From Spirochaetales bacterium (GTDB lineage: Bacteria > Spirochaetota > Spirochaetia > Sphaerochaetales > Sphaerochaetaceae): 64,000 bases of DNA. The stretch lies in the NCBI GenBank assembly GCA_017614375.1, contig JAGABZ010000007.1, positions 1 to 64,000 on the forward strand. Direction: 5' to 3'. Of the stretch, positions 45,946 to 55,514 are shown in pieces (the first letter of the stretch is position 1; each line of letters opens with the position of its first letter). Both the position numbers and the translations under genes were made by a program. Under the pieces are notes generated by a model that worked only from the letters and a program-made list of their open reading frames with translations, was not told the origin of the DNA and searched no databases.

Positions 45946-48810
45946 TCAGATTCTGCCCAGGCCCCGGAGGATCTTCTCAGGGGTCATCGGCCAGTCGCGG
46001 ATCCACACTCCGCAGGCATCGGCTATCGCGATTCCGATGGCCGGAGCGGCTCCGTTGGTGGCGATTTCGCTGATGCTCTTCGCTCCGAAAGGTCCGTAGT
46101 AGTCATTGATATCGATCAGGACCGCCTTGAAGTCATCCGGCTGCTCCCAGATCATCGGCACGCGGTAGTCGGTGAAATTGGGGTTCAGACAGACTCCGTT
46201 CTCATCGAGAATCATGCCTTCGTACAGGGTATGTCCGATGGACTTCAGTGCCGCGCCGTAAATCTGGCAGAGGGCCATGTCCGGGTTGATCGGAGTACCG
46301 GCGTCCTGGAAGGCGTAGAACTTCTCGACCTTGATCTCCCCTGTGCGGGTATTGACCGCAACCTGGGCAAAGTGCGCCCCGTACGGGATTGCCGCGTTGG
46401 TGGTGGCGAAGCTTCCCTCGGCCATAAGCTGGCCGCGCCCTGTCCCACCGGTGGCGGTATGGTTGATTTCAAAGAAACTCAGGGACTTGCCCGAAGTCGA
46501 AACCACCCTGCCGGGATACTCCAGACTGAGGTTGTCGGGGTTTTCGTCCATCTGCAGGGCCGCCTCTGCAATGATCTTCTTTTTCAGGTTCTCCGCCGCC
46601 AGAAGCGACGCGTTTCCGCTGTAGAAGGTTCCGCTGGATGCATAGGCTCCTGTGTCAAAGCCCGAGGCGTCGGTGTCTCCGGATATGACGGAAATCATAT
46701 CCATCGGCACTTTGAGGGTTTCGGCGGTCACCTTTGCGGTGATGGTGTCGAGTCCGGTGCCCAGGTCGCTTCCTCCGCTTTGGACAATGATGCTGCCGTC
46801 CGTCTCAAGCTTTGCTATGGCAGTTGCGTGGTCCAGTCCGGGCAGACCGCTGCCCTGCTGGAGCATTGCAAACCCCCTGCCCCGCTTCCAGTCGGAATCC
46901 GGGTCGTTCTCAAGCGGCCTGTCCCAACCCATCATGGCCGCTCCGCGCTCGATGGCCTGCATCAGGCCGCAGGAACCGACCGGCACCACCGCGCCGGCAC
47001 GTCCCTCGCCCAGTCCGGCGAGGATTTCGAGCATGTAGCCCTCTTCGACGCAGTTCTTCTTGACCATCGACAGATAGTCCTGGCCGACCGCCTTTGCCAG
47101 TTCACCCAGACACATCATCAGGGCATAGGTTCCCTTCGGTGCCCCGTATCCCTGATAGGCCCCGGTAGGCGGACAGTTGGTGTAGTACGTGTACACGTCG
47201 AACTTCATGTTGTCCACCTTGAACAGCGGCAGGGTCTTTGAGCAGGAGTTCATCGGCACCGTCAGGCAGTGGTTGCCGTAAGGACCGGTGTTCGCCCTGC
47301 AGTCAAAGCTTATGGCGGTTATCCGGCCGTCCTTCTTGGCGCCCATCTTTATGGTGACCTTCATCGGATGGCGGGTGCTGTTGGCGATGAACTCCTCGAC
47401 GCGGGTGTTGCGGGTGTAGATAGCCTTTCCCGTAATCCAGGTCATGTAGGCGCAGAGGTCCTCGATGAGGATGTCCTGCTTCGAGCCGTAGCCGCCGCCG
47501 ACCTTTTCCTTTATTACGTGGACCTTGCTCTCCGGGATGGAACAGACCTTTGCCACCACTCTGCGCAGATGGTACGGAATCTGGGTCGAGGCCTTGATGA
47601 CCAGCCTGCCGCCTTCGATCTTGGAGAAGCAGACGTGGACCTCCAGCGGGGTGCACTGGACCTGGTCGGTCTGGTATGTCCGCTCGATAACCTCGTCCGC
47701 CTCGGCAAAGCCCTTTTGAACATCGCCGATCTGACCGTGGGCGGCGGAAGCCAGATTGTGCTTCGGGTCGGCATTGATCGGGAACGGATAGTGGATTTTT
47801 CCTTCCCTCGGGTCGGCGCCGGCGTTGTACGCGTCCAGATTATCCGGGGCACCGACCCCGAAACTGACCTCTCCGCCCTGCACGACCGGAGCTCCGGGGG
47901 CCATGGCCTGCTCTACGGTGAGGACAGGTTCGAGGACCTGATATTCGACTTTAATCAGTTCTTTGGCTCTTTTTGCCGTTTCCCGGCTATCGGCAAGAAT
48001 AGCGGCAACCCTGTCACCGACGTGTCTGACCTTTTGGTTGAGCAGTTTCTTGTCGTGGGGCGAAGGCTCCGGCGACCCCTGTCCTGCGGTGGTGTAGTAA
48101 ATCTCAGGAACATCCTTGTAGGTGAGGATTTTCACCACACCTTCGAGTTTTTCAGCCTCGGAGGTATCGATGTCGGTGATATAGGCACTGGCATACGGCG
48201 AGCGCAGGACCTCCAGCCAGCAGGCGCCGGGCTCGACGAAATCCTCTACGTAAGCCTGCTCTCCTTTCACAAGCTGCGGTCCGTCCACCTTGGGCAGGGC
48301 CTTTCCGACATAATCGAGGTTCTTTCTGAACTCGGGAATCAGCTCGGACGGCTTTTTCCCCGTCACGGCCAGTTTCACCGCCAGATAGTAGTGCTCATAC
48401 CCGGCGTCGCGGATAAAGATTCCGCTGAGGGCATCGCGGATCTGTGCCCTCGTGGGATTGGGATGGTTCTCCAGAAGCCAGGTCAGCAGCAGCGCGGCCG
48501 CCGGCGCGTTGTACGCGCTCTGGACGATGCCGGCATCAATCATAGCCTGCTGCACTACCGTCAGCGAACGCCCCTGCGCAAGCCCGTCCGGTGTGCGGAT
48601 TTCCGCCCCGTCCGCCTGCCAGGCGCACATCAGGTTCGAATACACCGGACGCCCGTTGTACAGAATGGTATCGCTGCCGGCGAAGCCCTCCCGGTCGTCG
48701 CTGTCACGGACGCAGAAGTGCCCGGCATCGGCCAGGACCTGCCGCAGACATGCCGCGGGTTCGGCGTCCAGAACTGTCAGTTTCCCGTTGATTGTACAGT
48801 AGAACTTCAT
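45946..48810 (-). CDS. xdhD: XdhD-type molybdenum hydroxylase
   Basis: A 954-residue xanthine dehydrogenase-family protein closely matching E. coli XdhD along its length as remembered (SDD-x-x-GFAGSD near residue 40, VQSAYNAPAAALL, then the aldehyde oxidase/xanthine dehydrogenase molybdopterin domains). Molybdenum-site motifs include GGGYGSKQD, GAYQGYGAPKG, SGGSDLGTGLDT and GPFGAKSISE. The N-terminal ferredoxin-like domain keeps its shape but has lost the cysteines that bind the two [2Fe-2S] clusters. Expected role: hydroxylation or dehydroxylation at a purine ring, with electrons passing to YgfM and YgfK. Last gene of the purine operon; the start overlaps the ygfM stop (ATGA). Confidence 0.88.
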   Translation of the reverse strand: MKFYCTINGKLTVLDAEPAACLRQVLADAGHFCVRDSDDREGFAGSDTILYNGRPVYSNLMCAWQADGAEIRTPDGLAQGRSLTVVQQAMIDAGIVQSAYNAPAAALLLTWLLENHPNPTRAQIRDALSGIFIRDAGYEHYYLAVKLAVTGKKPSELIPEFRKNLDYVGKALPKVDGPQLVKGEQAYVEDFVEPGACWLEVLRSPYASAYITDIDTSEAEKLEGVVKILTYKDVPEIYYTTAGQGSPEPSPHDKKLLNQKVRHVGDRVAAILADSRETAKRAKELIKVEYQVLEPVLTVEQAMAPGAPVVQGGEVSFGVGAPDNLDAYNAGADPREGKIHYPFPINADPKHNLASAAHGQIGDVQKGFAEADEVIERTYQTDQVQCTPLEVHVCFSKIEGGRLVIKASTQIPYHLRRVVAKVCSIPESKVHVIKEKVGGGYGSKQDILIEDLCAYMTWITGKAIYTRNTRVEEFIANSTRHPMKVTIKMGAKKDGRITAISFDCRANTGPYGNHCLTVPMNSCSKTLPLFKVDNMKFDVYTYYTNCPPTGAYQGYGAPKGTYALMMCLGELAKAVGQDYLSMVKKNCVEEGYMLEILAGLGEGRAGAVVPVGSCGLMQAIERGAAMMGWDRPLENDPDSDWKRGRGFAMLQQGSGLPGLDHATAIAKLETDGSIIVQSGGSDLGTGLDTITAKVTAETLKVPMDMISVISGDTDASGFDTGAYASSGTFYSGNASLLAAENLKKKIIAEAALQMDENPDNLSLEYPGRVVSTSGKSLSFFEINHTATGGTGRGQLMAEGSFATTNAAIPYGAHFAQVAVNTRTGEIKVEKFYAFQDAGTPINPDMALCQIYGAALKSIGHTLYEGMILDENGVCLNPNFTDYRVPMIWEQPDDFKAVLIDINDYYGPFGAKSISEIATNGAAPAIGIAIADACGVWIRDWPMTPEKILRGLGRI

Positions 48811-49550
48811 CTGCCCGCCTCCTTGTGAAGGTCGAACAGGACCGTTTTCGTCAGATAGGCCTTGTATTCATCCGAACCGTAGATGTCCGAAACGAAGCGA
48901 ACGCCGGCCTGATTCAGAGCCCTGGCGACACAGTTTTCGCACTTCACGTCCGAGAACCCGACCTTCACGATTCCCGTGCCCTTTACCGCAGCCCAGGCAA
49001 AGTCCGGATTGGCGGCGGCGGCGGTCAGAACCGCCAGGCTTTCCTTTGTCATGGCGATCCTTTTTGAGACGACCGGGGCCTTCAGCGGAACCGATACGCA
49101 GCTGATGATCCGCTGCCTTAGGGAATCGAAGGAGGCCAGATACTCTTCTGCGGAAATCTCATCCTTCCAGTCCAGTTCAACCACGGCACCCGCGGCCAGA
49201 AGGGTCGGCACCAGATAACTGTCATCCCGGTGCAGATAGAGGTTGCCGGCTATGGTGGCCGCTTCCCTCTTTTGGAGCGAGCCCATGAAAGCAAGCGCCT
49301 CGCGCATATACGCGGGAGTTTTCGGATGGTCGATGGCAGCCTGGAAAGTTGTTCCCAGAGCGTAGCGGATCCGACCCTGCCGGGTCGAGATCCCGCCCTC
49401 CGGTTCGGCGAGGACGACGGCGTTTTCAGCCTTTATCAGAGAGCCGAGCCGGTTGAGTTCGGTTCCGCCCCCGTAAAGAACCGCATCGCCCTTTGAGAGC
49501 AGCGCCAGAGCCTCTGCCCGGTCACCGGCAAACAGGATCTTTCCTATCAT
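48807..49550 (-). CDS. ygfM: FAD-binding subunit of the XdhD-type hydroxylase
   Basis: A 247-residue protein of the molybdopterin dehydrogenase FAD-binding family: LYGGGTELNRL for the FAD loop, AATIAGNLYLHRDDSYLVPTLLAAGA for the second FAD-binding segment (normally TIGGN), and a CO dehydrogenase flavoprotein-like C-terminal domain. It would pass electrons from the molybdenum subunit to its acceptor. Coupled by ATGA overlaps to both neighbours. Confidence 0.85.
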   Translation of the reverse strand: MIGKILFAGDRAEALALLSKGDAVLYGGGTELNRLGSLIKAENAVVLAEPEGGISTRQGRIRYALGTTFQAAIDHPKTPAYMREALAFMGSLQKREAATIAGNLYLHRDDSYLVPTLLAAGAVVELDWKDEISAEEYLASFDSLRQRIISCVSVPLKAPVVSKRIAMTKESLAVLTAAAANPDFAWAAVKGTGIVKVGFSDVKCENCVARALNQAGVRFVSDIYGSDEYKAYLTKTVLFDLHKEAGR

Positions 49551-50920
49551 TGAAGTCCTCCCTTTCGAAGCAGCGCGGCGGCGGCTTCGTTGGCCCTGGC
49601 CGCGAGCTCCTCCTCGTCGGCACCGACAAGGTGTCCGTCGTCCACGACAACTCTGCCGTTGACGATGGTGTATTTCGTCTGATGATTGTAGCCGCAGAAA
49701 AGCAGAGCCGCCACCGGGTCGGACAGCGAACCGGCGTACTGCAGGCCTGTCATGTCGAAAACGGCAATGTCCGCCGCCCAGCCGGGCTCCAGTCTGCCGA
49801 TTCTGTCATAACCGAGCATCTCCGCCCCGTTTACGGTGGCCATTCTGAACACATCTGAGGCCTTTATTGCCGAAGAACCGTACTTCACCCGCTGCAGGAG
49901 CAGCGCCAGACGCATCTCCCCCAGCATATCCGAACTGTCATTGGAAGCGCTTCCGTCCACGGCCAGCCCGACGTTGATTCCCCTTTTCAGCATCTCAGTG
50001 ACCCGGCAGATTCCGCTGCCCAGCCTCATGTTGCTCGCCGGGCAGTGGGCCACCGAAGTCCCCGTCCGGGCCAGAACGTCCAGTTCCTCATCGTTGAACC
50101 AGATTCCGTGGGCATAGAACACATCCGGCCCGACCAGGGAGCACTGCTCCATCAGCTCCAGCGGCCTGACTCCGTGGATTTTCAGGCAGTCGTTCTCTTC
50201 GTCGATTGTCTCGCAAAGGTGGGTATGCAGGTGCACCCCGTATCTGCGGGCCAGGGCGGCGCTTTCGCTCATGCACTGCCTGGTAACCGAAAACGGCGAG
50301 CACGGAGCCAGCACAATCCTGTGCATGGCAAACGGTGACGGGTCGTGGAAAGCCCGGATGCACCGCTCGCTGTCCCGGATGATTTCATCCTCAGACTGCA
50401 CCACGCTGTCCGGGGGCAGGCCTCCGTCCTTGCGCGACTTGCTCATGCTTCCCCGGGTCGGAGAAAAGCGCATGCCGAGCCTGTCCGCCGCCTCGAACTG
50501 CAGAGCCATGATGTCACCCTCGAAGGAGCGGGGGTACAGATAGTGGTGGTCGGTGGTCAGGGTACAGCCGGTTTTAAGCAGTTCGGCCATAGCCAGAGTC
50601 GAAGAAACCGAAACGCCCTGCGCGTCGATGTTCTTCCAGATTTCATAGAGGTACACCAGCCAGTCGAAAAGCTTGGCATCCTGCACGGCTTTGAGGTTTC
50701 GCGTCAGAGTCTGGTAGAAGTGATGATGGGTATTGACAAAACCCGGGACGACGGTGCAACCGGAGCAGTCGATTGTCCGATCGGCCCGGACATCGAGGTT
50801 GGTCCCCACGGCTTTTACCGTATTGCCCTCGATCAGCAGATCCGCCCCGCTTTGGATTTCCTTGTCCGGGTCGGTCATCAGGGCGAAAATGTTCTTTAGA
50901 AGCAGGCTCTGTTTTTCCAT
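49547..50920 (-). CDS. 8-oxoguanine deaminase-like amidohydrolase
   Basis: A 457-residue amidohydrolase close to the 8-oxoguanine deaminase group, which turns 8-oxoguanine into urate. Metal ligands: NTHHHFYQTLTRN (H-x-H), LHTHLCETIDEENDC, the later histidine in FYAHGIWF, and the aspartate in AVDGSASNDSSDM. The FSPTRGSMS and GLPPDSVVQ segments and TSVAHCPASNMRLGSG are typical of that group and of related guanine deaminases. The start at 50920 is set by GGAG 6 nt upstream; the frame runs further upstream without a site. The 19-bp gap from ssnA keeps it in the operon. Confidence 0.82.
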   Translation of the reverse strand: MEKQSLLLKNIFALMTDPDKEIQSGADLLIEGNTVKAVGTNLDVRADRTIDCSGCTVVPGFVNTHHHFYQTLTRNLKAVQDAKLFDWLVYLYEIWKNIDAQGVSVSSTLAMAELLKTGCTLTTDHHYLYPRSFEGDIMALQFEAADRLGMRFSPTRGSMSKSRKDGGLPPDSVVQSEDEIIRDSERCIRAFHDPSPFAMHRIVLAPCSPFSVTRQCMSESAALARRYGVHLHTHLCETIDEENDCLKIHGVRPLELMEQCSLVGPDVFYAHGIWFNDEELDVLARTGTSVAHCPASNMRLGSGICRVTEMLKRGINVGLAVDGSASNDSSDMLGEMRLALLLQRVKYGSSAIKASDVFRMATVNGAEMLGYDRIGRLEPGWAADIAVFDMTGLQYAGSLSDPVAALLFCGYNHQTKYTIVNGRVVVDDGHLVGADEEELAARANEAAAALLRKGGLQ

Positions 50921-50939
50921 CGGTTTCTCCGTGTGCGCC

Positions 50940-52277
50940 TCAGGGCTTGATTCCGTCCACCTTCTTCCAGAGGCGTGCGGCAACCTCGGCAGCACGGGCA
51001 TAGATTTCCTGTGCGTCGACGAGGGTGAAGCGGCGGTTCTCGTAAACCGGAACACCGTCGATAATCACCGATTCGACGCATCCGGCATTCATACCCCAGA
51101 CAAAGTGCCCCGGGGCGTTCTGGGCAAGAAGCGGCGTCGGATTGTGATAGTCCAGAATCGCCAGGTCAGCCTTGTATCCCGGCTTCACCCTGCCCAGTCG
51201 GGCGTCCTTGAAGTACAGGCTGACCAGGTCGTTTCCCCTGTTGAGGGCGGCGACAAAGTCCGCCGGCCACCACGGCCCTCCCTGATCCTTGTGCTTGAAG
51301 AACGCAATCTTCAGCTCCTCGAACATGTTCCCGCCGCATCCGTCGGTTCCGATGATCAGTTTCTCGATGTCGGTCAGATGTGAGCAATAGCCGACGTTGT
51401 TGTTCATATTGCTCCGGCCGTTGTGGGCGAACCAGCAGCCGCGGTCGTTGAGCAGTTCCACTTCATGGGAGTTGATGTGAAGTCCGTGTACGAGCAGCGT
51501 GTCCGGCCTGAGCAGTCCGTAGCGGTCGAGCCTGTCGATGATGTCGGTTCCGTGGACATGGTGGCAGTGGACCACATCGTACTTGTCCTCCGCTATGTGG
51601 ATGTGGGCCCCGCGGCCGGTGTCCTCACAGGCCTGTCCCATCAGCTCAAGCCCCTCGTCGGGAATGGTGAACTGTGCATGGCCTCCGATCATCGCGTCGC
51701 ACATGACCCTTTCCCCGGCCCTGCGGCGCCTGTCAACCTCACGGGCGAAACGGACGTTTTCATTTACTCCCTCGCGGACCTCGTCCATCCCTTTGTTGCG
51801 GTCGGTGACCTCATAGCAGGTCAGTCCCCTCAGGCCGGTTTCCTCGATGCCGCGGGCAATGACCGAAAGCGATCCGTCTATGAACGACGGACTGGCATGA
51901 TGGTCTATAACCGAAGTAGTACCGGCCGCGATGGCATCAAGTGAGCAGATCAGGGAACTGTAATAGCAGGCCTCCTCGTCCAGACCCCGGTCCAGACGCC
52001 ACCACCATTCCTTGAGGACCTGGATGAAATCGGTCTGCGGCCCGGCGGAAATCAGCATTCCCCTGGACAGTCCGCTGTAGTAGTGGTGGTGGCCGCAGAC
52101 GTTGCCCGGAATCACCGTGCGTCCGGCGGCGTCGATGACCTTGTCAGGCTTCAGGCCGTCACCGGCTCCGGGACCGACGGCTGTGATTACCGAACCATCG
52201 ATAACGATGTCGGCATTCTCAATGACCTCGAACGGAGATCCGGTCTGCATCACTCTGGCGTTTTTTATGACAATCAT
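50940..52277 (-). CDS. ssnA: SsnA amidohydrolase
   Basis: A 445-residue amidohydrolase matching E. coli SsnA: PGNVCGHHHYYSGLSRGM with the H-x-H metal pair, FIQVLKEWWWRLDRGLDEE, SVIDHHASPSFIDGSLS, AHIHIAEDKYDV, FAHNGRSNMNNNVGY and GTDGCGGNMFEE. SsnA belongs to the purine-degradation gene cluster and is thought to act on a ring-opened or deaminated purine intermediate. GGAGGAATAG directly before the ATG overlaps the ygfK stop. Confidence 0.92.
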   Translation of the reverse strand: MIVIKNARVMQTGSPFEVIENADIVIDGSVITAVGPGAGDGLKPDKVIDAAGRTVIPGNVCGHHHYYSGLSRGMLISAGPQTDFIQVLKEWWWRLDRGLDEEACYYSSLICSLDAIAAGTTSVIDHHASPSFIDGSLSVIARGIEETGLRGLTCYEVTDRNKGMDEVREGVNENVRFAREVDRRRRAGERVMCDAMIGGHAQFTIPDEGLELMGQACEDTGRGAHIHIAEDKYDVVHCHHVHGTDIIDRLDRYGLLRPDTLLVHGLHINSHEVELLNDRGCWFAHNGRSNMNNNVGYCSHLTDIEKLIIGTDGCGGNMFEELKIAFFKHKDQGGPWWPADFVAALNRGNDLVSLYFKDARLGRVKPGYKADLAILDYHNPTPLLAQNAPGHFVWGMNAGCVESVIIDGVPVYENRRFTLVDAQEIYARAAEVAARLWKKVDGIKP

Positions 52278-55200
52278 CTATTCCTCCACCCTGCCCAGCA
52301 GGTAGTCGTAATCCTCGAGGATGATTTCAATCAGGGCCTTGGCCTGCGGATCGATATCCCCGCCGACCGCGCCGGTGTCGTCCACCGTGCACCTTACGAC
52401 CTCCCCGTCCGTCCTGACAAGCAGTCCGTCGCAGTCAAGCAGCATTCCGCTGTTCTGTGAGGACTCGAAATCGTCCTTTCTCGAGAAGATGGTGAACTTG
52501 TCCCTGTACGGACGACCCTGATGGTTGCAGAACACGGCGCAGTTTCCGCATTCGTTGCAGTAAGCGTCCAGATGGACAATCTGGAACGGGTCCTCGAACA
52601 GATCGCATCCGCGGACATCGATCGAGACATTTGCCCTGTTCGGACAGACCTCGACGCACTTGCCGCAGACGTACGGGCAGTCCAGACACCTGTGGGCCTC
52701 GTTCGACTCGAAGTCCTTGTCACCGTATTTCAGGCTGCAGCGGAATGAGGTCTTCTTGGCGTGGATGTCATCAAGCTCGGCCTGCTCCGCCTGAAGCAGT
52801 TCCTCCCTCTCCTCCTCGGAAAGCTCCTCGGTGCTGTAACCGCAGCCGCAGTCCTCATTGTCACAGTCGGTCCGGTCGCAGTTCCCGCAGTCCCCGGCAG
52901 AGCATTCGCAGCCCTCGGCTCCGGCCTCAATCTCGTCGGCGGCGTTCTCGAACTCGGTATCGATGGCATCCTCCACCGCGGCTCTTGCCGAAGCGATGCA
53001 ACGGACGACTGTCGACGGTCCGCTCTGGGCGTCGCCGATCAGGTACACACCCTCAATCGGGGTGCGCATCGTTTCATGGTCGGTAACCGGCCTGCGTTTC
53101 TCATCAAGCGGCAGCCCGAAGGACTCCAGCAGGTCCGAATCGCAGCGCTCTCCGGTGGCGGTGATCAGCAGAGAGCAGTCCAGGACAAAGGTTCCGCCGG
53201 TCTCCACCGGGCTCCTTCTGCCCGAAGCGTCCGCCTCCCCCAGTTCCATCACGCTGCACTCGAGCATGCCGTCCCTGAAGGCCTTCGGATTGGAAAGGAA
53301 ACGGAAGATCGTACCCTCTGCCAGCGCGTGTTCGTACTCCTCCCTGTCGGCCGGCATTTCCTGGGAACTTCTGCGGTAAACGACGGTGACGCTCTTTGTG
53401 CAGGGCAGTCTCAATGCCGCCCTGGCACAGTCCATAGCGGTGTTGCCTCCGCCGCAGATTACGATGTTTCCGCTGATTCCGCCGCCGGTGGGGTCCTTGG
53501 CGTATGCGGAAAGGAATTCAAGAGCCCCGACGACCGGCAGCCCGCCTTCATTGTCCAGCTTTATGAAGTTGTCCTTCGGTGTTCCGACCGCGTAAAAGAC
53601 ATAGTCGAAACCCTGATTCTTCAGAGCCTGTACAGTCTCCTCCTCGTCCCTGACGTTGAAGCGGAATTCAACCCCCGTTTTCATGATGTGGTCGATATCG
53701 GCCTGCACAGCCGAAGCGGGAATCCTGAACTCGGGGATGATCCTCTTCACCACTCCGCCGGCATCCGCGGCCCTTTCCAGGACGGTGACTCTGAAACCGG
53801 CCCTGGCGAGGAAATACGCCGCCGAGAGACCGGCCGGTCCGGCTCCGACAACGGCCGCCTTGATATCCGACAGCTCGGTTTCCGGCTTGAACCCGGCATA
53901 ATAGGCCGCCGAGCCCTTTTCAACCGCGACCTTTTTCATATCGCGGATTCTGACCGCGCCCTCGTAGTCCATCCTGCTGCAGTGCTTCTGACACTGGTGG
54001 TCACAGATGGCACAAGTGATGTTGGGCAGGGCATTGTCCTCATAAATCAGCTCCAGGGCCTCGGCGTACATTCCCCTGCCGGCCAGATAGACGTAGTCCG
54101 GAACATCCTGATGAATAGGACAGGCATCCTGGCACGGAGCCGTGAAGCAATCGAACATCTCCAGTTCGGAGGAACTTTTAGCCCTGTCCGTACCGCGGAA
54201 CTCCTTCTGCTGACTTGTCTCGGTCAGGGCACGTTCACTAAGTGCCCTCAAGGCATCCGGATCGACACCATCGGCATCCCACCGTTTGCTCTCCCTGATA
54301 AGCAGCTCTATCATCCGGGTCATTCTGGAGTACCCGCCCGGCTTGAGCATATCGGTGGCCAGCGTTATCGGCCGGATGCCCGTGTCAAACAGATCCTTCA
54401 CGGAGAATATATTGGCTCCTCCGGAGTACGAAATCGGAAGCTTTCCCGCAAACTCTTTCGAAAGCAGGGCGCCTACCCTGGTCGAAATCGGAAGCAGGGC
54501 CCGTCCGCTCATGTACATCTCCGCCCCGGGCAGCTGTCCCTGGTCGTTGACCGAACCGAGGGTATTGGTCAGCTTCACCCCGAATCCCAGTCCGAGTGAT
54601 GCAGCCAGATCCTTGAGCCTGTGAAGCATCGCCAGGGCGTCGGAGTACTGGAGATCCTTTTCAAAACTCTCCCGGCGCAGACCGACGTATGCGAAACCGG
54701 TCTTGTCGAGGATTTCACGGACCGCGTCATATCCGAGCAGTGTCGGGTTGAGTTTGACGAAGGTGTTCAGGCCCTTTTCACTGAGCATGTAGGTGCAGAT
54801 TGCCTCGATTTCCTTCGGGGGACAGCCGTGCATGGTGGAAATGGTGACCTGCCTGCATATATGGCTGTCGATCGAGGCCCCCAGATTGCCGAGTTTCCCC
54901 GCCAGGGCTTCAAACGGGGTATCGTCCAGCAGCCCGCCGGCAATCAGCTTTTCCATTTCGGCGATGTAGGTTTTAAAGGCCGGGACACCGGAGGCGTCCA
55001 TCATGTTGTTGATGAAATCCTGCATCCTCGGCTGCTTTATCCCCTCCAGGTTGTAGCCGACGCTCATGTTGAAGATGAACCGGTCGTCGGCAATCCTGCC
55101 CCCGCGCAGCAGCGCCTGAAGCAGATGGACGGCAATCCAGGCCTTCAGGTATTCGTCAAAGGCCTTGGGCAGGGTGTATTCGGTGCTCCACTCGACGTTG

Positions 55201-55514
55201 TACCCCTCATCCCGGGCGTCGATACAGGGTTTGTCGATATCCAGCGTGTCCATGATCTGGACCGTCTTGAGCTCTATGAACCGCCCGCCGGCCAGATAGG
55301 CTGTGATTATGTTCTGGGCCAGTTGCGTATGGGGACCGGCGGCGGGGCCGCACGGAGTCGAACATACCTGACCGAAAACATTGACGGCCTTTTTCTCGTC
55401 GTCCTCAAAGAACTGTCTCCTGCCCAGACCGAAAATCGAGTCCTCGTTCCTCAGCTCGGCAAACATCCTCTTAAGCAGTTCCGAAAACGGAACCGGACGC
55501 ATAATGTCACCCAT
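52278..55514 (-). CDS. ygfK: YgfK oxidoreductase with extra Cys-rich insert
   Basis: A 1078-residue iron-sulfur flavoprotein matching E. coli YgfK (about 1030 residues): MGDIMRPVPFSELL start, the N-terminal TIM-barrel dihydroorotate dehydrogenase-like domain (PCGPAAGPHTQLAQN, GRFIELKTVQIMDTL), and a linking Fe-S segment (APCQDACPIHQDVPDYVYL). Then come a GltD-like FAD/NAD domain (VVGAGPAGLSAAYFLARAG, VICGGGNTAMDCAR) and a C-terminal ferredoxin region (CLDCPYVCGKCVEVCP, CNECGNCAVFC). A cysteine-rich acidic insert, about residues 860-890 (GCECSAGDCGNCDRTDC onward), precedes the last domain. First gene of the operon; GGAGG lies 6 nt before the ATG. Confidence 0.92.
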   Translation of the reverse strand: MGDIMRPVPFSELLKRMFAELRNEDSIFGLGRRQFFEDDEKKAVNVFGQVCSTPCGPAAGPHTQLAQNIITAYLAGGRFIELKTVQIMDTLDIDKPCIDARDEGYNVEWSTEYTLPKAFDEYLKAWIAVHLLQALLRGGRIADDRFIFNMSVGYNLEGIKQPRMQDFINNMMDASGVPAFKTYIAEMEKLIAGGLLDDTPFEALAGKLGNLGASIDSHICRQVTISTMHGCPPKEIEAICTYMLSEKGLNTFVKLNPTLLGYDAVREILDKTGFAYVGLRRESFEKDLQYSDALAMLHRLKDLAASLGLGFGVKLTNTLGSVNDQGQLPGAEMYMSGRALLPISTRVGALLSKEFAGKLPISYSGGANIFSVKDLFDTGIRPITLATDMLKPGGYSRMTRMIELLIRESKRWDADGVDPDALRALSERALTETSQQKEFRGTDRAKSSSELEMFDCFTAPCQDACPIHQDVPDYVYLAGRGMYAEALELIYEDNALPNITCAICDHQCQKHCSRMDYEGAVRIRDMKKVAVEKGSAAYYAGFKPETELSDIKAAVVGAGPAGLSAAYFLARAGFRVTVLERAADAGGVVKRIIPEFRIPASAVQADIDHIMKTGVEFRFNVRDEEETVQALKNQGFDYVFYAVGTPKDNFIKLDNEGGLPVVGALEFLSAYAKDPTGGGISGNIVICGGGNTAMDCARAALRLPCTKSVTVVYRRSSQEMPADREEYEHALAEGTIFRFLSNPKAFRDGMLECSVMELGEADASGRRSPVETGGTFVLDCSLLITATGERCDSDLLESFGLPLDEKRRPVTDHETMRTPIEGVYLIGDAQSGPSTVVRCIASARAAVEDAIDTEFENAADEIEAGAEGCECSAGDCGNCDRTDCDNEDCGCGYSTEELSEEEREELLQAEQAELDDIHAKKTSFRCSLKYGDKDFESNEAHRCLDCPYVCGKCVEVCPNRANVSIDVRGCDLFEDPFQIVHLDAYCNECGNCAVFCNHQGRPYRDKFTIFSRKDDFESSQNSGMLLDCDGLLVRTDGEVVRCTVDDTGAVGGDIDPQAKALIEIILEDYDYLLGRVEE

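Follow-up and report, generated by a model that had tools for sequence, protein, structure and literature searches.

The xdhD gene and its N-terminal domain

The stretch analyzed here, called the window throughout, comprises 64,000 nucleotides of contig JAGABZ010000007.1 from a member of the Sphaerochaetaceae, and on its minus strand it carries ygfK, ssnA, a deaminase-like gene, ygfM and xdhD, in that order (Table 1). Our subject is xdhD, which encodes a molybdenum (Mo) cofactor subunit with an N-terminal domain of the [2Fe-2S] type. None of the eight positions at which cysteines bind the two clusters in cluster-intact relatives is a cysteine in the window protein. The same loss is found in most of the XdhD proteins surveyed, and in them the domain is rebuilt under purifying selection, not decayed.

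Membership in the XdhD family follows from the TIGR03313 score (1202.9 bits over residues 6-952, cut-off 1101.9), and the Mo-cofactor domains PF02738, PF20256 and PF01315 of the xanthine oxidase family all score above their cut-offs. The AlphaFold2 (AF2) model of the protein, with a predicted local distance difference test score (pLDDT) of 88.7, aligns with solved members of that family with Z up to 40.4. The first-pass annotation of this DNA had noted that the outline of the [2Fe-2S] domain is kept while its cysteine motifs read SDDREGFAGSD, VQSAYNAPA and FIRDAGY, and this is confirmed by the ligand alignment and by the Fer2_2 profile, which matches residues 73-146 with 52.1 bits (cut-off 30.3). 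Residues 1-150 also match solved Fe-S subunits, the best being 4zoh_C (3.6e-20). With cysteine at 0 of 8 ligand positions, the protein departs on sequence from the two-[2Fe-2S] pattern of the family, and we retain the view that it is a relative of the xanthine oxidase family by sequence and modeled fold, apparently a variant without the clusters. The annotation was also right that the normal chain from Mo through two [2Fe-2S] clusters to flavin adenine dinucleotide (FAD) cannot exist as such, all eight ligands being replaced.

Farther along the protein, residue 553 (in AYQGYGAPKG) is a glutamine that is invariant in 48 aligned XdhD sequences; the Cetobacterium protein reads AYRGYGAPQG, an arginine motif that we take to be that of the common xanthine dehydrogenases. 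The glutamine may bear on substrate choice by XdhD.

Replacement of the ligands across XdhD

We compared 133 XdhD rows, made up of 132 survey rows and the Cetobacterium protein, with one fragment that lacks the domain (L074) excluded. The survey is skewed toward near relatives of the window, as the best 80 of 528 relatives were kept. Clustering at 98% identity gave 103 clusters, of which 98 are ligandless and five fully intact, two of the latter (L017 and L021) sharing one genus code. Ligandless records include ones from the Sphaerochaetaceae, other Spirochaetales, Oscillospiraceae, Lachnospiraceae, Mogibacterium, Anaerolineaceae, Flexilinea and Escherichia coli. Intermediates are missing: 26 of the 98 ligandless clusters have a lone cysteine, at position 44, none of the 98 has two or more ligand cysteines, and none of the 103 clusters has two to seven of the eight. 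The eight positions of E. coli K-12 XdhD read D, A, D, S, S, N, S, D, with no cysteine among them, and chance or sequencing error as the source of the loss is ruled out by its being shared between E. coli K-12 and 98 of the 103 clusters.

The replacements are themselves close to fixed. Among the 98 ligandless clusters, D38, D47, N101 and D135 are invariant (98/98 each), while S98 is found in 96 and N59 in 95, so that a single residue accounts for at least 95% of sequences at six of the eight sites. Conservation is 1.00 at D38, 0.60 at A44, 1.00 at D47 and 0.97 at N59 for the N-terminal cluster site, and 0.98 at S98, 1.00 at N101, 0.90 at I133 and 1.00 at D135 for the helical-part site. The mean over the eight is 0.93, against 0.68 for the remaining 142 columns of the domain, and of 100,000 sets of eight domain columns drawn at random, only 175 were as conserved. 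Two arginines that neighbor former ligand sites in the sequence, R35 and R134, are invariant as well. A comparison of 128 ligandless rows, repeats included, with the five intact ones gave 63 class-specific positions, 18 of them within the first 150 residues; six of these 18 are former ligand sites, and seven others are no more than two residues away from such a site. The ratio of nonsynonymous to synonymous substitution rates (dN/dS), from only eight close pairs, is 0.085 and 0.050 for the two halves of the domain and 0.049 for the Mo domain (a superseded run on 83 pairs, including repeats and saturated pairs, had given 0.21, 0.16 and 0.15). Pseudogene decay of the domain is ruled out by the site conservation and the dN/dS of these close pairs.

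We considered whether a cluster might be held by other cysteines of the domain, which in the window are C5, C21, C33 and C62, and rejected this on their poor conservation; the best-kept cysteine column is occupied in at most 58 of the 98 ligandless clusters. In 18 of the 98 (19 if only window-aligned columns are counted) the domain has no cysteine anywhere, and a cysteine-bound cluster is thus impossible in those 18.

A quick tree with long outgroup branches places the cluster-intact Cetobacterium protein as the first branch within XdhD, with a support of 98 in the Shimodaira-Hasegawa-like approximate likelihood ratio test (SH-aLRT), and a single loss of the ligands is compatible with the tree (approximately unbiased test, p 0.545). 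In phylum samples drawn around two other genomes, XdhD scored above cut-off only in the genome at the center: one of 398 around Porcincola (L129) and one of 251 around a Chloroflexi genome (L089).

Gene neighborhood and the route of the electrons

The gene ygfM lies directly upstream of xdhD in 125 of the 133 loci (repeats included). Of the eight loci without such a call, four begin at a contig end and L017 and L021 have the match in a longer overlapping frame; the other two are L105 and L118. The window gene is named ygfM from position and homology; its product is predicted to be an FAD subunit from a FAD_binding_5 match of 36.2 bits (cut-off 27), and its AF2 model (pLDDT 94.8) aligns with the FAD subunit 1ffu_C with Z 24.1 over 246 residues at a root-mean-square deviation (rmsd) of 3.1. 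The GGT and ATIGGN-type loops of YgfM, which we presume to be FAD-binding, are kept in 123 ligandless and three intact systems, with variants that include ATIAGN (window) and GGS/STIGGE (E. coli). The order ygfK-ssnA-ygeY-deaminase-ygfM-xdhD-ygeW is common to intact and ligandless xdhD (L072, L083, L208, L209).

Table 1. Positions of xdhD, its altered domain and the neighboring genes in the window.
Feature	Position	Strand	Basis
xdhD, Mo-cofactor subunit, 954 residues, N-terminal ligandless [2Fe-2S]-type domain	45946..48810	-	TIGR03313
XdhD residues 1-150, two-part [2Fe-2S]-type domain, 0/8 ligands	48361..48810	-	Fer2_2, solved-subunit matches
Former ligand sites, N-terminal (plant-ferredoxin-like) cluster	48634..48699	-	alignment to cluster-intact XdhD
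D38	48697-48699	-	N-terminal cluster site
A44	48679-48681	-	N-terminal cluster site
D47	48670-48672	-	N-terminal cluster site
N59	48634-48636	-	N-terminal cluster site
Former ligand sites, helical-part cluster	48406..48519	-	alignment to cluster-intact XdhD
S98	48517-48519	-	helical-part cluster site
N101	48508-48510	-	helical-part cluster site
I133	48412-48414	-	helical-part cluster site
D135	48406-48408	-	helical-part cluster site
ygfM, FAD-type subunit, end overlaps xdhD start by 4 bases	48807..49550	-	FAD_binding_5
8-oxoguanine deaminase-like amidohydrolase, between ssnA and ygfM	49547..51055	-	NF006055, 593 bits against 532
ssnA, aminohydrolase	50940..52277	-	NF005540, 532.1 bits, cut-off 444
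ygfK, Fe-S flavoprotein	52278..55514	-	TIGR03315, 1329.4 bits, cut-off 835.3

The deaminase-like open reading frame as listed, with a GTG start at 51055, overlaps the ssnA frame by 116 bases. As the profile is matched only from residue 48 onward, with a methionine at residue 46, translation probably starts some 45 codons farther downstream.

Sets of genes for another xanthine dehydrogenase are frequent neighbors. The genes xdhA-xdhB-xdhC stand directly before ygfM-xdhD-ssnA-ygfK in several loci (L073, L076, L082, L086-L088, L093, L097 and L122), and an xdhA-xdhC-xdhB set lies ahead of ygfM-xdhD in many Spirochaetales loci; a joint complex of the two enzymes, or channeling of purines between them, is possible. 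Matches of 4.2 kb in Mogibacterium-type loci had the look of a gene fusion, but the loci inspected hold only neighboring xanthine dehydrogenase genes. Plasmid CP054717.1 of Salmonella enterica (L230), typed as conjugative, carries ygeW, dpaL, ygeY, hydA, ygfK, ssnA, ygfT and fdhF, along with separate 2Fe-2S and Mo genes, and from this gene content the urate pathway may be transferable between strains.

The reaction of the E. coli enzyme has been described by Li et al. (2025; PMC12507026), who report that XdhD, purified along with an approximately 30 kDa protein (putatively YgfM), converts urate to yanthine with NADH. YgfK does not appear among the listed components of that assay. The paper assigns the next step, an NAD(P)H-dependent dearomatization of yanthine, to YgfK and SsnA, with YgfK as the yanthine reductase and SsnA, jointly with YgfK, opening the ring of reduced yanthine, and it likens XdhD-YgfM to the xanthine dehydrogenase of Rhodobacter. 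Its main text does not contain the word cysteine, and in the parts that concern us the sole occurrence of "2Fe" is in the formula of ferrous ammonium sulfate and the missing wires in XdhD-YgfM go unaddressed (PMC12507026). A commentary notes a confident prediction of the XdhD-YgfM complex and counts the donor of electrons to clostridial XdhAC among the open matters (PMC12990295), and another paper describes XdhD as having no FAD domain, the clusters going unmentioned in the part that concerns us (PMC7191737). Our literature search, which most subscription papers lay beyond, found no report of the missing ligands. Thus the enzyme family and the reaction are already known, while the group-wide loss of both ligand sets was not found reported in the literature searched.

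By homology and gene order, the window enzyme may be expected to carry out the urate-to-yanthine reaction of E. coli. XdhD-YgfM would then catalyze the opening step of the reductive urate pathway: electrons from NADH would enter through FAD on YgfM and the Mo site would remove the C6 oxygen of urate to give yanthine. In the window and E. coli group the N-terminal domain would no longer hold clusters and would persist as a conserved spacer and docking piece between the FAD subunit and the Mo domain, both cluster sites having apparently been remade into near-fixed polar sites (D38/D47/N59 and S98/N101/D135). Electrons would travel to Mo some other way than through a chain of two clusters, most likely inside XdhD-YgfM. 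A relay within XdhD-YgfM is favored because the domain is under selection, the former cluster sites are near-fixed and polar, and YgfM is kept. We would give about an even chance to the proposal as a whole, that XdhD-YgfM is an NADH-linked urate reductase in which electrons pass within the two subunits and not through a two-cluster chain.

Several observations weigh against this proposal. If xanthine dehydrogenase geometry holds, the gap between FAD and Mo in the absence of clusters would be about 25 Å or more. Moser-Dutton estimates of tunneling are 0.001-0.01 per s at 25 Å and 1e-6 to 1e-5 per s at 30 Å, which is too slow for a good enzyme; therefore something must bridge the gap. For one hour at 10 uM enzyme, the calculated product on that geometry would be 20-180 uM at 25 Å and less than 0.2 uM at 30 Å, so that detectable product could be explained by a slow leak as well as by a proper relay. 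The published assay did use 10 uM enzyme, gives no rate in the parts that concern us, and names YgfM only from its size (PMC12507026); a trace redox carrier could for these reasons have been at work in it. The window YgfM scores only 89.6 bits against TIGR03312, below the cut-off of 241.5. The unconstrained tree requires two changes, with E. coli and the rest perhaps representing separate losses, and an earlier tree without Cetobacterium put E. coli at the base with a support of only 0.244, which amounts to leaving it unplaced. There is also the near-perfect co-occurrence of XdhD with YgfK, found above cut-off in all 25 queried genomes that have a ligandless XdhD, in all 16 Spirochaetota genomes with XdhD above cut-off (12 ligandless, four intact), and, within the window's family, in 95 of 102 genomes (at least a fragment in 101 of 102; these three figures were tallied by hand, and the ligand state, read for 39 of the 102, was ligandless in every case). 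As 21 of the 25 queried genomes were picked because the xdhD locus showed no ygfK, the pairing is not mere operon linkage.

This last point bears on the candidate named by the first-pass annotation, which had held that electrons must pass through a third protein and that YgfK was the obvious one. On this account YgfK would dock on XdhD-YgfM as the physiological donor and pass electrons from its own Fe-S clusters to Mo. Besides the co-occurrence, it is in its favor that no protein of the window genome other than YgfK matches the AegA (GltD-like) family above 25 bits, that Cetobacterium, with a UacX-like gene in the place of ygfK in its cluster, has an intact XdhD, and that a non-cluster cysteine of YgfK (C240 in the window) is present in 19 of 29 sequences accompanying ligandless XdhD but in two of 15 elsewhere. 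However, cluster-intact XdhD is accompanied by YgfK too, in four of four Spirochaetota genomes and in the same gene order; ygfK shares its stretch with other Mo enzymes that have all three Fe-S motifs intact (L212-L218, L220); and in 33 Spirochaetota genomes of the sample YgfK is present with no XdhD above cut-off, although in one of these (G074) a truncated gene resembling xdhD does lie at the edge of a contig. Conversely, one genome that is 93% complete (G314) has XdhD with no YgfK found. In YgfK, all 15 cysteines of the cluster motifs are invariant, in 29 ligandless-type and 15 other sequences alike. YgfK has a reaction of its own and is unlisted in the E. coli XdhD assay, in which XdhD and a putative YgfM made yanthine with NADH (PMC12507026), contrary to the need for a third protein. 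We therefore regard YgfK as a doubtful substitute for the missing wire. The annotation had itself named electron transfer by XdhD-YgfM alone as the counter-test to its view; this has been reported in vitro, but at 10 uM enzyme, and with neither a rate nor a cofactor analysis of XdhD in the parts that concern us, the published assay does not settle the matter (PMC12507026). The comparison of YgfK sequences revealed no additional cluster motif, and a gain of extra clusters by YgfK was rejected. The window YgfK does have a cysteine-rich stretch before its C-terminal dicluster domain that is absent from E. coli YgfK, which may be a metal site or a lineage-specific linker. In Collinsella, ygfK adjoins a gene known to us from its annotation only, as a selenium-dependent xanthine dehydrogenase.

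Somewhat less likely again is a separate [2Fe-2S] or [4Fe-4S] protein acting in trans, either the small subunit of a neighboring XdhA-XdhC-XdhB enzyme or a ferredoxin of the YgfS type. The annotation had suggested a search for a separate ferredoxin subunit gene, and two further Fer2_2 proteins do occur in the window genome, but both of these Fe-S domains have another Mo subunit encoded no more than about 3 kb away. Similarly, of 29 ligandless loci that span at least 22 kb, 23 show an XdhC-type subunit, and xdhC of E. coli is about 17 kb from xdhD, although most of the surveyed XdhC matches sit, by eye, in sets with XdhA and XdhB, and none was found within the stretch examined in the window and five other long loci, that of E. 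coli included. [4Fe-4S] proteins are encoded near ygfK in the Collinsella and Salmonella clusters, and AegA, a relative of YgfT, has been linked to formate-dependent loss of urate in E. coli (PMC8097209); no AegA-family protein scores above cut-off in the window genome. The domain of XdhD itself, moreover, still occupies the place that such a subunit would take. Improbable, in our judgment, is a closed cycle in which XdhD moves oxygen between two purines at Mo with no external electrons, FAD and the domain being structural. Pyrogallol transhydroxylase is a Mo enzyme without net electron transfer, and a cycle of that kind would account for the loss of the wires, but YgfM is retained together with its loops, and net reduction of urate with NADH has been reported for the E. 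coli enzyme (PMC12507026).

Taken together, the interpretation in the first-pass annotation is partly supported. Names that call XdhD an Fe-S-binding subunit look wrong for the ligandless proteins, and that annotation is due for reconsideration in them. The group spans Spirochaetota, clostridial and Chloroflexi records and E. coli, with the ligands replaced and the domain kept under selection, and its E. coli member reportedly reduces uric acid, the compound that causes gout when present in excess. A direct question is raised as to what joins FAD to Mo in ligandless XdhD-YgfM, and it can be tested on natural pairs of intact and ligandless proteins whose genes are ordered alike.

Comparison with known systems

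The closest characterized relative is E. coli XdhD-YgfM (TIGR03313/TIGR03312), which is of the same family at 51% identity to the window protein and has likewise lost all eight ligands. The E. coli urate locus has ygfK, ssnA, ygfM and xdhD, as in the window, although ssnA there adjoins ygfM, whereas the deaminase-like gene stands between them in the window; a second difference is that the window YgfM falls below the TIGR03312 cut-off. The cluster-intact XdhD proteins of Spirochaetota and Cetobacterium differ from that of the window in having all eight cysteines, while the neighboring ygfM and the urate-pathway genes are alike; the four from Spirochaetota are above the TIGR03313 cut-off, as in the window, and that of Cetobacterium was unscored. 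Plasmid p1 (664 kb) of Cetobacterium somerae carries an apparently complete urate-reduction cluster (L227:3870-18284), with genes for the intact XdhD, YgfM, SsnA, YgeY, diaminopropionate lyase, D-aminoacylase and a short protein, UacX-like by eye, that has two [4Fe-4S] motifs. The annotation of the 31 kb Cetobacterium stretch shows no ygfK, the search for it in that genome having been limited to this stretch.

Among enzymes of solved structure, the aldehyde oxidoreductase of Desulfovibrio gigas (Mop, 1sij) has the same order within one chain, an Fe-S domain followed by the Mo domain, and aligns with residues 1-953 of the XdhD model with Z 39.3 over 861 residues at an rmsd of 2.4. Mop carries two [2Fe-2S] clusters. 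It has no FAD domain (PMC3958847), unlike XdhD with the adjacent YgfM. The top Z of the list, 40.4 over 726 residues, belongs to the Mo domain of 4-hydroxybenzoyl-CoA reductase (1rm6). That enzyme is also a reductive dehydroxylase, and its clusters are carried by an Fe-S domain that forms a subunit of its own.

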